Shown here: positions 59,401 to 64,000 of the stretch, piece by piece
Layout of the letters: every line of letters begins with the position of its first letter
How positions within the stretch are numbered: the stretch's first letter is position 1
Source of the DNA: an uncultured Sphingomonadaceae bacterium
Lineage (GTDB): Bacteria > Pseudomonadota > Alphaproteobacteria > Sphingomonadales > Sphingomonadaceae
Assembly (NCBI GenBank): GCA_947489315.1
Contig: CANLCX010000005.1
Span: 1 to 64,000 of the forward strand
Length of the DNA: 64,000 nt
Reading direction: 5' to 3'
Program-made: the position numbers and the translations under genes
Notes under the pieces: model-generated
Database searches by the model: none
The model's input: the letters and a program-made list of their open reading frames with translations, nothing else
What the model was told of the DNA's origin: nothing

Positions 59401-60195
59401 TTGACGTTACAACAACTCAACTCCCTTTGGGTCGGCAACAAACTTAGTTATCTGGAGAGGCTGTGCTTAACGTCCGCGTTGGCCGTGGGCCATGATTTTA
59501 CGCTCTGGTCTTATGAGCCTGACAAGCTTGAAGGCGTGCCTGATGGCATCAAGTTGCGCGATGCTGCTGAAGTTATGCCGCGCGAGCGCCTGCTTACCTA
59601 TGCAGATATCGGTTCGGTTGCATTGGGTGCCAATTTCTGGCGCTATGAACTGCTGGCCAAAGGCCTTGGCTATTGGGTCGATATGGATTTCTATTTTCTG
59701 AGACCTTTGGAATTTGCTGAAGACCATGTTTTCTGTTGGGAATATGAGGGTTGGGTTAACAATGCGGTTCTTTTGGCTCCAGAGGGATCAGCGATGGTTT
59801 CTGACCTTAACTCGATACCACAAGCTAATAAGCGACCTCCTTGGTTTGGCCCCAAAAGATCATTGGCCTTTTACTGGAAAAAATTAACGAAAGGTCCGAT
59901 CGGACTGGATGAAATGCCATGGGGCACGTATTCTTCCGGTCTGGTCACTCACGTGATCCAAAAAAATAAGCTTGAACATTATGCAAAACCGCCAAGTTTT
60001 TTTTATCCGGTACGCTGGAAGGACGCACGGGATCTATATGAACCAGCTGACGTTGTAGAAGCTATGCTCGCAGACGATACGGTCGCTGTTCATATGTGGC
60101 ACAGTCGTCTGGTGGGATTGTCCGATAAACCCCCTGCCCCGGGCTCTTATATTGATTTGGCATGCAAGAAGCATAACGTCGACACGTCTTACTGA
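59401..60195 (+). CDS. DxD glycosyltransferase, GT32-like
   Basis: 264 residues from TTG 59401. The N-terminus reads LNSLWVGNKLSYLERLCLTS, then GHDFTLWSYE and RLLTYADIGSVALGANFWRY, and the DxD YWVDMDFYFLRPL, followed by VFCWEYEGWVNNAVLLAPEG. The pattern is that of the Och1/capsular-type glycosyltransferases with a sugar-binding DxD region. The C-terminal HMWHSRLVG is a conserved-looking feature. No membrane segment. Convergent with the next gene (13-base gap). Confidence 0.82.
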   Translation: MTLQQLNSLWVGNKLSYLERLCLTSALAVGHDFTLWSYEPDKLEGVPDGIKLRDAAEVMPRERLLTYADIGSVALGANFWRYELLAKGLGYWVDMDFYFLRPLEFAEDHVFCWEYEGWVNNAVLLAPEGSAMVSDLNSIPQANKRPPWFGPKRSLAFYWKKLTKGPIGLDEMPWGTYSSGLVTHVIQKNKLEHYAKPPSFFYPVRWKDARDLYEPADVVEAMLADDTVAVHMWHSRLVGLSDKPPAPGSYIDLACKKHNVDTSY

Positions 60196-60208: not shown

Positions 60209-60853
60209 TTATCTATTCAAGGCGCGTTTGATTTTACGGGCCATACCAATCAAATCCCGGATCAACGGTATCTTGTCAAAAAAGCGAAGCTCGGCAATGT
60301 CCGTTCGCGATGGACGCTGGTTGCCTAAGGCAGGCTCAGCAAACAGAGTGGCAATATCTGGGAAAGCACGGCGATACCAAATATAAGCTCCGTCAATAGG
60401 TGGGTGGATGCCGTCGTAGACCAGATTATTGAGAAAATCTGCAAGGTGAGCGGCCGTTTCTGGCGCAAATCCCATCATATGAGCGCCAATAATATCGCTC
60501 GTAAGAAGATTGGTGGGATCACTAGCTTCATAGCCACCATAAAATATCGACCATGGTTGCTTTGGTGCATAGGAGTTTGCTTCGGGAGTGAAATCGCAAT
60601 CATCTTCGAGGATAAGTACCCGATGCCCGTTGCTGGCTGCTTCTTCCAATATTGCTAAATGGCTTTGAAAAACGCCTCGCGCACCGGGGGAACTAAACGG
60701 CCCGGCATCATCAAACTGGAAGGCCTTAAAAAAGGCAACGCGTGGATCATCGAGTAAATCCAGTCGCGCCAATTCTCCCTCCATCTCCGTACGGCGATCT
60801 GTACGATAGGGTAAATTGATAATACGGATACTGTCAAACTGGTCGAAAATCAT
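60209..60853 (-). CDS. Glycosyltransferase family 25 (LPS-type)
   Basis: 214 residues. GT25 features are RIINLPYRTDRRTEMEGELA at the N-terminus, GARGVFQSHLAILEEAASNG, and HRVLILEDDCDFTPEA with the acidic metal/sugar-binding motif. GT25 members are commonly galactosyltransferases of lipo-oligosaccharide, but the donor cannot be read here. Its ATG overlaps the stop of the upstream GT4 gene by 4 bases. Confidence 0.88.
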   Translation of the reverse strand: MIFDQFDSIRIINLPYRTDRRTEMEGELARLDLLDDPRVAFFKAFQFDDAGPFSSPGARGVFQSHLAILEEAASNGHRVLILEDDCDFTPEANSYAPKQPWSIFYGGYEASDPTNLLTSDIIGAHMMGFAPETAAHLADFLNNLVYDGIHPPIDGAYIWYRRAFPDIATLFAEPALGNQRPSRTDIAELRFFDKIPLIRDLIGMARKIKRALNR

Positions 60854-62145
60854 GGCTGACGTCCCTGTGGGGATGAATGATAAGCCTCTATCGCATCGGC
60901 AAACAGCTGCGGTAAAGGAGATACCGCAACTTCGATATCAAACTCCTGCTTTATTGTTTGCTTGGCTTGTAACGCTAAATCTGCGGCTTCCTTTTGATCT
61001 GATAGGTTCCGAATAATGGCCGTTTCCAGTCCTTCCCAATCCGCTGGGTGAAAGAGTAACCCGTTCTTTCCATCTTCGATCAGTTCCGGCACGCCGGCTA
61101 CTCGACTTGCAACAACCGGCACGCCTAATGCCATGGCCTCCATAAGAACGACGGGCAGGCCTTCCATGAAGCTTGGTAAGACCAGTAAATCAGATTCTGC
61201 TATCGCGATGAGTGTATCTGGCTCGGATCGCCGACCCAGTATTTTGACATGAGTTTCTAAATCCAAATGTTTTAATTCAGTCTCAATTGCAGTTTTCTCA
61301 GGACCGTCACCTAGCAATATGAGTTCAGCATTCCAACCGCTACTGCGTACACCTGCAAAGGCCTTTAACAAGCCCAGAAGCCCTTTTTCACTGGAAAGTC
61401 GCGCTACGCAGATAATCTGTTTAGGTAATCCGGACTGCTTTTCGGTGCTATGCGTCGGGATATCATCTAGGGCGATCCCGCACCGGATTGTATGGAATTT
61501 GTGCCGATGGTCTGAATGGCTGATCCGCATAGCTTGCGCACGGCCAAACCATGATACACAAGCAACAAATTGTGCTGCAGCCACTTTCTTTCCCAAAAGC
61601 AATCCTGCCGGATAGTCGGTCTCAGAGATACCATGCAGCGTCAGGCTCCAAGGTATCTGGGAAAAATCGGCGGCAAGCATTCCGACATTGGCAGCTGAGT
61701 TAGCAAAATGGTTGTGCAAATGAACGATGCCATCTTTTTTCAACTGATTTGCTAGCGTGATGCTTTCGACGAAGTGAAACAGTGACCATAGAAGCGCTCT
61801 TCCGCCCGGAACGCGATGCTGTATTGCCCGTTTTAAAGTTCTTAAGTAGCGAACAGGCCGATGCAGCAGAGCTTTAATATGAGCTGCGATATGAGTTGCC
61901 CAACCTTGCCCCAAAAGGAAATAGGTTTGCTCTTGCGCCTCGACATCCAATGGATTGTCCAGCCCCGCAACCGGCTTTCTGATACTGTAGGTTAGAATAT
62001 CGAGATTAACTTTTTTCAGCTGTGCGATTTCCCGCCGAATAAAGGTGTGCGAAGGCGCAGGATATTGGCTGGTAAGATAGGCAATGGGTCCGGATATGCT
62101 TGCGGCTTCCTCCACTGTCTCGTTTTTTTTGTCCTGTTTGTTCAT
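60850..62145 (-). CDS. Glycosyltransferase family 4, colanic-acid type
   Basis: 431 residues. N-terminal domain GPIAYLTSQYPAPSHTFIRR (the SHTFIxRE motif of WcaC/WcaL-like transferases); VHLHNHFANSAANVGMLAAD; C-terminal GT-B domain with QIICVARLSSEKGLLGLLKA, ELILLGDGPEKTAIETEL, LPSFMEGLPVVLMEAMALG and VPVVASRVAGVPELIEDG. Cytoplasmic retaining transferase. Overlaps both neighbours by 4 bases on each side, so it is tightly coupled with the GT2 and GT25 genes. Confidence 0.92.
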   Translation of the reverse strand: MNKQDKKNETVEEAASISGPIAYLTSQYPAPSHTFIRREIAQLKKVNLDILTYSIRKPVAGLDNPLDVEAQEQTYFLLGQGWATHIAAHIKALLHRPVRYLRTLKRAIQHRVPGGRALLWSLFHFVESITLANQLKKDGIVHLHNHFANSAANVGMLAADFSQIPWSLTLHGISETDYPAGLLLGKKVAAAQFVACVSWFGRAQAMRISHSDHRHKFHTIRCGIALDDIPTHSTEKQSGLPKQIICVARLSSEKGLLGLLKAFAGVRSSGWNAELILLGDGPEKTAIETELKHLDLETHVKILGRRSEPDTLIAIAESDLLVLPSFMEGLPVVLMEAMALGVPVVASRVAGVPELIEDGKNGLLFHPADWEGLETAIIRNLSDQKEAADLALQAKQTIKQEFDIEVAVSPLPQLFADAIEAYHSSPQGRQP

Positions 62146-62789
62146 TTGTAAAATATAGCCCCCCCACGCTGGCCCTTTAAAGAGCGAACAATGAAACGGA
62201 ATATACTCAAAGTTTCTCCGAACTTCCCAAGAATATTAGGAATAGCAAGTTTCCAGAAAAAACTATTTTTCACGTTCGATCGGATTGCCATACGCGCAAT
62301 TTGTAATGAATAAATGGCCGGGAGTAGCAGCCAATATAATGGATTTAGCAGACCGGCTGTCACAACCAATAGCGACAATAACAAAGCCCAAAATAATGAC
62401 CTCGCAACTTCGCGAGCATATAGTGTTTTGCCGGTTTGCCGTGTTGTCCACCAGACCTGTGCATAGCCGAAGCCGCTTCGTACAGCGCACATCCGATTGT
62501 AGAAAGGTGCATCGGGAAACCGTTCTCGCCGACGCCCGCAGACAACCGCTACTTCGGGTCGTTGGTCAAGAACGTCAGCACCTCGAGTCCTTGCCATGGC
62601 TGGGCTTCCATCGGTAGAAGCGGATTCCACATAAACGATCGGCAATCCCAAAGGAGCCAGAGAATCGATGCATTGGATCAGCCGCTCACCCTCATTGCGA
62701 CCAATAGCGACTACGCCTACTCTGCCTCTCGCATGAGAGGCATTTAAAATTGTCTGATTTTCGGGTGTAGGTCCCTTTGCTTCATCCAT
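62142..62789 (-). pseudogene. Glycosyltransferase family 2 remnant, catalytic core deleted
   Basis: 215 codons from ATG 62789 (gggag upstream), uninterrupted. The N-terminal nucleotide-binding half is intact (GVVAIGRNEGERLIQCIDSL, VYVESASTDGSPAMARTRGA). After GADVLDQ it jumps to PEVAVVCGRRRERFPDAPFY, skipping the segment of about 60 residues that normally carries the DxD (FVDGDC-type) site. After YNRMC it jumps to AVRSGFGYAQVWWTTRQTGK, skipping the CGGDAMMR / GEEPELCVRLR acceptor segment. The C-terminal membrane helices remain (SLFWALLLSLLVVTAGLL). Both junctions are in frame. Relatives I know are over 300 residues. It is probably inactive as a transferase; a retained structural role is possible because the frame is open and coupled to its neighbours. 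Confidence 0.7.
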
Positions 62790-64000
62790 TGATGACGCTC
62801 CCATATTCCAACCATGTGTTGAAATCGGCAACAAGCCCTAGCTGCATGAAAATAAATCGCCACACTAGAACCAGAAATATGAAAAGACCAAGTAAAACAA
62901 CGTCTTGCTTCAAGAAAGAAAGACCTTCTTTCCATTGCGAGACGGATAGAGAAATATAACGAAATAGGTCCGCAACCGCGATAACACAGAGAGCAGCTAT
63001 CAAACCAAAATAAGTCAAAGCCAACGGTACGGCAATCACCAGCCATATCAGTTTGGCAAGATTTGCTTGGGCGCTATGGACTGACTTTCCGATACCCAAC
63101 ATAAAGGATTCTCCCATGGTTGAGAGAATTGAGAACCAAGCGCCTGCCATCAATATCGGTAGCATGAACGCCGCGGCAGTATAGCGATCATCATATAATA
63201 TAAGAATGACAAGATCGGAAAGTGCAACCACTATTGAGAGACCACATGCCGTCGCCAGTAACGCTTTTAGCCGCAATCCTGAAATGGCTGGACGCAGTTC
63301 TGACCGTTCTTTTGCGAATGCTGCGACTTTAGGGAATATCATCATCGCACCGACGCGTTGTACCAGCATGCCTATCATGTCGGAAAATGTCCGCGCTATC
63401 CCGTAAATACCCAAAATTGCGAACGGAATTTCTTTAGCAAAGTAGAGACGGTCAAAATTCATGGCGAGAAAAAAGACGACAGAAGAAGCAAACACCCATT
63501 TTCCAAACGAAATAATCGCTTTGACGTGCTCGCGAGCTATTTTGATTCGATGCAGGCGAAAATCAATCAAGAAAAAGCTGGTAGTTGTAGAGACAGAAGT
63601 AGCAATTATCAGAGCCGCCACCAATGCCCAAATTGTCGGGGAGTAGAGTGCCAAAGCAATGTGAACAATGGCGGAAATCACGGCTATAAAAACATCGAAT
63701 AGAGCGATCGTTTTAACCGCTTGCTGTTTTTGTAAGATGAAGCGCGAGGGAGACTGGATTCCAGTCAGCAGAAATAATACTGAAATAATAGGAATGATCT
63801 CAATCAGTTCATCGCTATCATAAAATTCAGCCAAAGGCTGGGCAAGCAACAGGGCGATCACAAAAAGCAAGATGCCGCGAATGATCTGAATAGTCCAAGC
63901 CGTATTGTAAAAATCGGGTTGGTCACCTTTACGATTGCTCACGATATTCTGTCCGATACCCACATCAGACAGCAATTCGATTCCGGTACGCAGTGTATTA
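62782..64000 (-). CDS. Wzx-like polysaccharide flippase (partial, 5' end outside window)
   Basis: MATE/polysaccharide-synthase family lipopolysaccharide-repeat flippase. At least 405 residues are visible, with about ten membrane segments. The frame continues to the right edge as NTLRTGIELLSDVGIGQNIV, which matches the region near residue 90 of such flippases, so the start lies beyond the window. Landmarks are RKGDQPDFYNTAWTIQIIRG, FGKWVFASSVVFFLAMNFDR, YFAKEIPFAILGIYGIARTF, VGAMMIFPKVAAFAKERSEL. Moves lipid-linked repeat units across the inner membrane. Its stop overlaps the GT2 remnant start by 8 bases. Confidence 0.9.
   Translation of the reverse strand, partial: NTLRTGIELLSDVGIGQNIVSNRKGDQPDFYNTAWTIQIIRGILLFVIALLLAQPLAEFYDSDELIEIIPIISVLFLLTGIQSPSRFILQKQQAVKTIALFDVFIAVISAIVHIALALYSPTIWALVAALIIATSVSTTTSFFLIDFRLHRIKIAREHVKAIISFGKWVFASSVVFFLAMNFDRLYFAKEIPFAILGIYGIARTFSDMIGMLVQRVGAMMIFPKVAAFAKERSELRPAISGLRLKALLATACGLSIVVALSDLVILILYDDRYTAAAFMLPILMAGAWFSILSTMGESFMLGIGKSVHSAQANLAKLIWLVIAVPLALTYFGLIAALCVIAVADLFRYISLSVSQWKEGLSFLKQDVVLLGLFIFLVLVWRFIFMQLGLVADFNTWLEYGSVING

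Follow-up and report, generated by a model that had tools for sequence, protein, structure and literature searches.

A GT2 glycosyltransferase gene of a Sphingomonadaceae exopolysaccharide operon, probably inactivated recently by two in-frame deletions

Background

The exopolysaccharide (EPS) locus at the end of a 64,000-nucleotide stretch of DNA from an uncultured Sphingomonadaceae bacterium (referred to below as the window) raises the question whether a glycosyltransferase gene that has lost the centre of its catalytic domain, while keeping an open reading frame, encodes a protein still of use to the cell. A first-pass annotation, made from the letters alone, had described a GT2 gene whose catalytic core is removed by two in-frame deletions, and had left two readings side by side: recent decay without a frameshift, or selection to keep the remainder as a non-catalytic subunit. 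A frame that is open and well placed within an operon can nevertheless encode a dead enzyme, which a gene caller would report as an ordinary protein, so such frames should be treated with caution. The portion of the literature consulted yielded no paper joining glycosyltransferase, pseudogene, exopolysaccharide and Sphingomonadaceae.

In this work we have compared the gene with its counterparts in the genus and in the family, showing that the lesion is real and that its most likely cause is an ordinary and recent event, by which a variable EPS operon lost the function of one of its glycosyltransferases, and not the rise of a new kind of protein.

Results and discussion

The truncated GT2 gene and the motifs it has lost

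The gene is placed between those of a Wzx-type flippase and a GT4 glycosyltransferase (Table 1). Its ATG lies inside the end of the flippase gene, giving an 8-base overlap (62782-62789), its TGA overlaps the GT4 ATG at 62142-62145, and GGGAG is found immediately 5′ of the ATG; the open frame and the overlaps with both neighbours reported by the first-pass annotation were seen, and both protein junctions quoted there are present in the translation. An alternative start of the frame, TTG at 62834, would extend the product to 230 aa.

Table 1 Features of the EPS locus at the end of the window
Feature	Coordinates	Strand	Description
GT25-like gene	60209..60853	minus	214 aa, open frame; overlaps GT4 stop
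GT4 gene	60850..62145	minus	431 aa, open frame; ATG overlaps GT2 TGA
Truncated GT2 gene	62142..62789	minus	215 aa; ATG placed as the ATG of the G323 orthologue
Junction 2	62484..62492, at about 62487/62486	minus	77 codons, 231 bp missing
Junction 1	62564..62572	minus	52 codons, 156 bp missing; within TTCTTGACC stretch
Wzx-type flippase gene (Polysacc_synt_3)	62782..64000	minus	453 aa in full, extends past the window

Codon alignment with the seven intact orthologues of the genus (330-358 aa; genomes G298, G323, G301, G153, G243, G314 and G322) gave identical gaps against every one of them, with 52 and 77 codons missing from the window gene, and the same two clean gaps appeared in DNA alignments with L002 (a contig of G323), G153 and G243. 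The first gap takes out DGDC, identical in 34/34 homologues, and with it DGD, here the form of the DxD-type metal motif. The second takes out GGD (both glycines in 34/34 homologues, the aspartate in 31/34) and GEEP (33/34, 34/34, 33/34 and 34/34 for its successive residues), putative acceptor-side motifs according to the role given them in the first-pass annotation. Altogether 129 codons, including DGD, GGD and GEEP, are absent, and the gene has lost conserved functional residues relative to its orthologues, as a pseudogene does. The alignment with full-length homologues, proposed earlier as a check, therefore bears out both the removal of the catalytic core by two in-frame deletions and the assignment of DxD to the first and GGD/GEEPE to the second.

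Both gaps interrupt the GT2 domain between conserved motifs, leaving its beginning and the membrane tail in place. Because the motifs are missing, the short product is probably inactive. The parts that remain might be thought to support some altered glycosyltransferase activity; since DGD, GGD and GEEP are all gone, and none of their residues is conserved in fewer than 31 of the 34 homologues, this is scarcely credible.

The contrast with an intact enzyme is best illustrated by P0002 (CANMWO010000001.1, uncultured Sphingomonadaceae bacterium; PF00535), which, like the window GT2, follows the flippase gene of an EPS locus and shares 63-72% protein identity with it across the three retained pieces, but has 358 aa with DGD, GGD and GEEP in place. 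P0002 matched PF00535 with 55.5 bits (8.8e-15), whereas the short protein reached 15.0 bits (E 0.024), below the cut-off of 23.3 bits, and matched none of the Pfam and NCBIfam models at cut-off. By the curated PF00535 threshold the short protein does not class as a functional member of the GT2 family; its descent from full-length GT2s is apparent from the retained pieces, which are collinear with members end to end and lie at the same locus. The sugar transferred by the intact orthologue cannot be named, since its matches to NCBIfam were weak (best MftF, 51.6 bits vs a cut-off of 280) and nothing good was found by sequence among solved structures (best GmaR, E 0.024). AlphaFold2 run on three-sequence alignments gave mean pLDDT values of 51.4 for the short and 50.7 for the full protein, too low for use. 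When a plasmid collection was searched with the 3.2-kb region 60850-64000, no match was found.

Since the comparison rests on one genome per species, a gene that is truly full length might have been shortened by assembly or sequencing. The edges shared in relatives, however, are no longer than 7 bp and 3 bp, far too short for an assembly collapse, both gaps comprise whole codons with flanks that read cleanly, and the assembly (3.88 Mb in 11 contigs) is 100% complete with 0.16% contamination. Neither a second GT2 copy nor displaced missing parts were found elsewhere in the same assembly. An artefact is thus very improbable.

Intact, split and short forms of the gene

The GT2 gene is present in 9/32 genomes of the genus. 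Apart from the window genome and G278, in which the gene is broken, all carry it as an open frame (seven frames, 337-370 aa). The short form occurred in 1/32 genus genomes and in 1/298 genomes taken evenly across the family, the window genome each time. Matches were obtained in 50/298 family genomes (window included), of which many were weak and probably represent other GT2 proteins; those in open frames below 300 aa, other than the window gene, came from G278 (239, 164), G295 (284) and G131 (89, with internal stops). The first-pass annotation had allowed for a recognised family of about 215-residue proteins of this architecture. Such a family finds no support, as there was no second case in the 32 genus or 298 family genomes, and the short form was found in a single lineage, where a conserved non-catalytic GT-like subunit would be expected in more than one.

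Of the eight further genus genomes that carry the gene, G278 alone has it split over two frames, which overlap and encode 239 aa and 157 aa (L007:1498-2599, also L060). Either the same gene has been disrupted a second time, or the split is a sequencing error. The G278 orthologue resembles the window gene in being disrupted at the same locus with an open GT4 frame downstream, and differs from it in that the frame is split and not shortened by in-frame deletions.

Constraint on the retained codons

Selection on the 194 retained codons was estimated with a two-ratio codon model (own script) on a multifurcating six-taxon tree, adopted because several nodes of the locus tree had support of only 44-68. 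The dN/dS of the window branch was 0.150 vs 0.092 elsewhere, with pairwise dS saturated in many pairs and branch estimates rough; the difference is not significant (2dL 1.79), and a window-branch value of 1 was rejected (2dL 19.6). The likelihood profile placed the window value at roughly 0.09-0.29 at the 95% level (2dL 10.26 at 0.05, 1.52 at 0.10, 2.32 at 0.25 and 4.10 at 0.30), from which it follows arithmetically that a neutral part of the branch, if any, makes up at most about 22%. Zero stops would have P=0.05 at 0.11 unconstrained substitutions per site, the branch measuring roughly 0.94-1.29, and the absence of stops caps unconstrained time, if any, at about a tenth of the branch. Past purifying selection on the retained codons is thereby shown, with normal constraint over most of the branch. 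From the low dN/dS and the lack of stops it follows that either the lesion arose late compared with the species split or the frame remains under constraint.

The latter alternative would apply if selection maintained the short protein as a membrane subunit that no longer catalyses but serves the other EPS glycosyltransferases or the flippase as a scaffold. Such a role would agree with the open frame and both intact overlaps, with a window-branch dN/dS well below 1, and with retained codons that look as constrained as those of intact orthologues (identity to relatives 0.67-0.69, vs 0.65-0.71 among five intact orthologues when the close pair G153-G243, at 0.91, is not counted). Recent deletions would nevertheless leave the same constraint signal, the form is in no other genome searched in the genus or the family, and the gaps cut into the GT2 domain between its motifs and not at its edge. 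The membrane tail, moreover, shows no extra constraint on the window branch (0.163 vs 0.098, 2dL 1.08), and two residues invariant in 34/34 homologues are both altered, the aspartate of DSxSTDG to E and a tail glycine to S. We regard a selected subunit as unlikely; should it prove to be kept, the short form would offer an uncommon example from nature of a GT2 trimmed to a scaffold.

Among positions identical in the seven other proteins the window gene has 6/70 altered, vs 0-3 of 64-67 (14/462 together) when each of the others is left out in turn. With the six closest proteins only, the excess nearly disappears because the count for the window (12/102) is similar to those for G298 (11/101), G323 (9/99) and G301 (7/97). 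In the wider set of 34 homologues the excess is slight: 3/43 positions are altered at the 90% threshold and 5/50 at the 80% threshold, which ranks the window tied second and narrowly first, respectively, among 35 rows. Relative-rate counts of unique changes were higher in the window in 7/12 comparisons, lower in 4 and equal in 1. The altered sites may be a sign of relaxed selection, although a weak one.

The neighbouring genes were examined likewise. A four-taxon check of the flippase gene gave a raised value on the window branch (0.117 vs 0.023, 2dL 4.72), which was not reproduced in the six-taxon test (0.054 vs 0.041, 2dL 0.87). The GT4 gene had a lower value on the window branch in its four-taxon check (0.069 vs 0.133, 2dL 3.17).

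Probable recent inactivation and the survival of the frame

The explanation that we consider likely, with good though not complete confidence, is that a full-length membrane-tailed GT2 of the EPS operon was recently inactivated in the window lineage by two deletions. The short form is found in the window genome only, there is no spare copy, and the same gene is broken in G278; together with normal past constraint and the change of two invariant residues, these observations support recent decay, the first of the two readings originally offered, and nothing favours a selected subunit over it. The ancestral gene would have been a full-length, membrane-tailed GT2 glycosyltransferase of the EPS operon, from which two lineage-specific deletions removed the metal-motif stretch and the greater part of the acceptor-side half. 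The residue or linkage added by this enzyme would then be missing from the glycan that the strain makes.

Several points tell against recent inactivation. Under pure neutrality, two deletions would be less likely to leave the gene free of frameshifts and stops and still overlapping both neighbours; conserved sites show only a small excess of changes and the relative-rate counts are mixed; a repeat at junction 1 is clear in only one of five relatives, with none convincing at junction 2; and the split in G278 could be a sequencing error.

As to the first point, the first-pass annotation had called retention of the frame unusual, which overstates the case, as two random deletions would both keep the frame with a chance of 1 of 9, and the overlap with GT4 could add to this. 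The GT2 stop overlaps the GT4 start in the window, in G153 and G243, and in G278 (second frame of the split gene), and because of this overlap in-frame survivors may be favoured whatever the GT2 protein does: in-frame deletions would let translation run on into GT4, and breaks of the frame might not. The second frame of the split G278 gene also runs into GT4, therefore the frame change there need not halt translation before GT4. We infer that the frame may have been kept partly by chance and partly because translation into the overlapping GT4 and GT25-like genes was spared.

Bacterial pseudogenes can arise by deletions between short direct repeats. The window gene resembles pseudogenes of this kind in that its first deletion falls within directly repeated sequence, and differs from them in that the frame is kept in both deletions and that there is little repeat at junction 2. 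In the intact G323 gene TTCTTGA (7 bases) stands at both edges of the first deletion; for a deletion of that size in that gene, a run of at least 7 within 15 bases occurs at 4% of positions. The other four relatives tested have 3-4 matching bases there, which is unremarkable. At junction 2 edge identity was 1-3 bp in the five relatives tested, unremarkable in all, and no convincing repeat was found in any of them. Because of the repeat at junction 1 in G323 and the 1-3 bases at junction 2, slippage between short repeats is a plausible origin of the first deletion and an unsupported one for the second.

Variation of GT2 and GT4 at the EPS locus

The flippase, GT2 (whole or broken) and GT25-like genes occur in the same nine genus genomes, and a search for the GT25-like gene in the other 23 gave nothing at E 1e-20. 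The GT25-like protein itself scored 21.2 bits against PF01755, below the cut-off of 24. GT4 is present at the locus in five of the nine (G000, G153, G243, G278 and G314) and was not found there in G298, G301, G323 and G322, which have distant GT4 matches (33-35% identity) elsewhere in the genome. GT2 is broken in 2/5 genomes with GT4 vs 0/4 without it, so that by tally two genomes have a broken GT2 with GT4 present, four lack GT4 with GT2 intact and three have lost neither. The pattern is suggestive; both broken GT2s would fall among the GT4 carriers by chance with P=0.28, a hand calculation that ignores relatedness. That GT2 and GT4 are alternative steps, lineages losing one but never both, and that the short GT2 has in addition been retained to partner the neighbouring EPS glycosyltransferases at the membrane without catalysis of its own, is a decidedly improbable combination. 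The variable GT2/GT4 content suggests that glycan structure differs among species of the genus.

Several minor features of the locus were also noted. In G298, G323 and G301 (L055, L056, L057), where GT4 is missing, 125-126 bp separate the GT2 and GT25-like genes, and a stretch ahead of the GT25-like start, shared in part, is possibly a promoter. Past the window end, a gene for a 412-aa protein adjoins the flippase gene (L063:6324-7562, minus strand), as a similar gene does in L002; its product ends in a C-terminal VPEPATW, which we take to be PEP-CTERM-like. On the plus strand, at 59401-60195, lies a gene for a 264-aa protein that matches PF04572 (alpha 1,4-glycosyltransferase conserved region). 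Conservation of this gene greatly exceeds that of GT2 and GT4: its G323 orthologue has 87-95% identity to those of six genus genomes, one of them the window genome, and 68% to the G314 orthologue.
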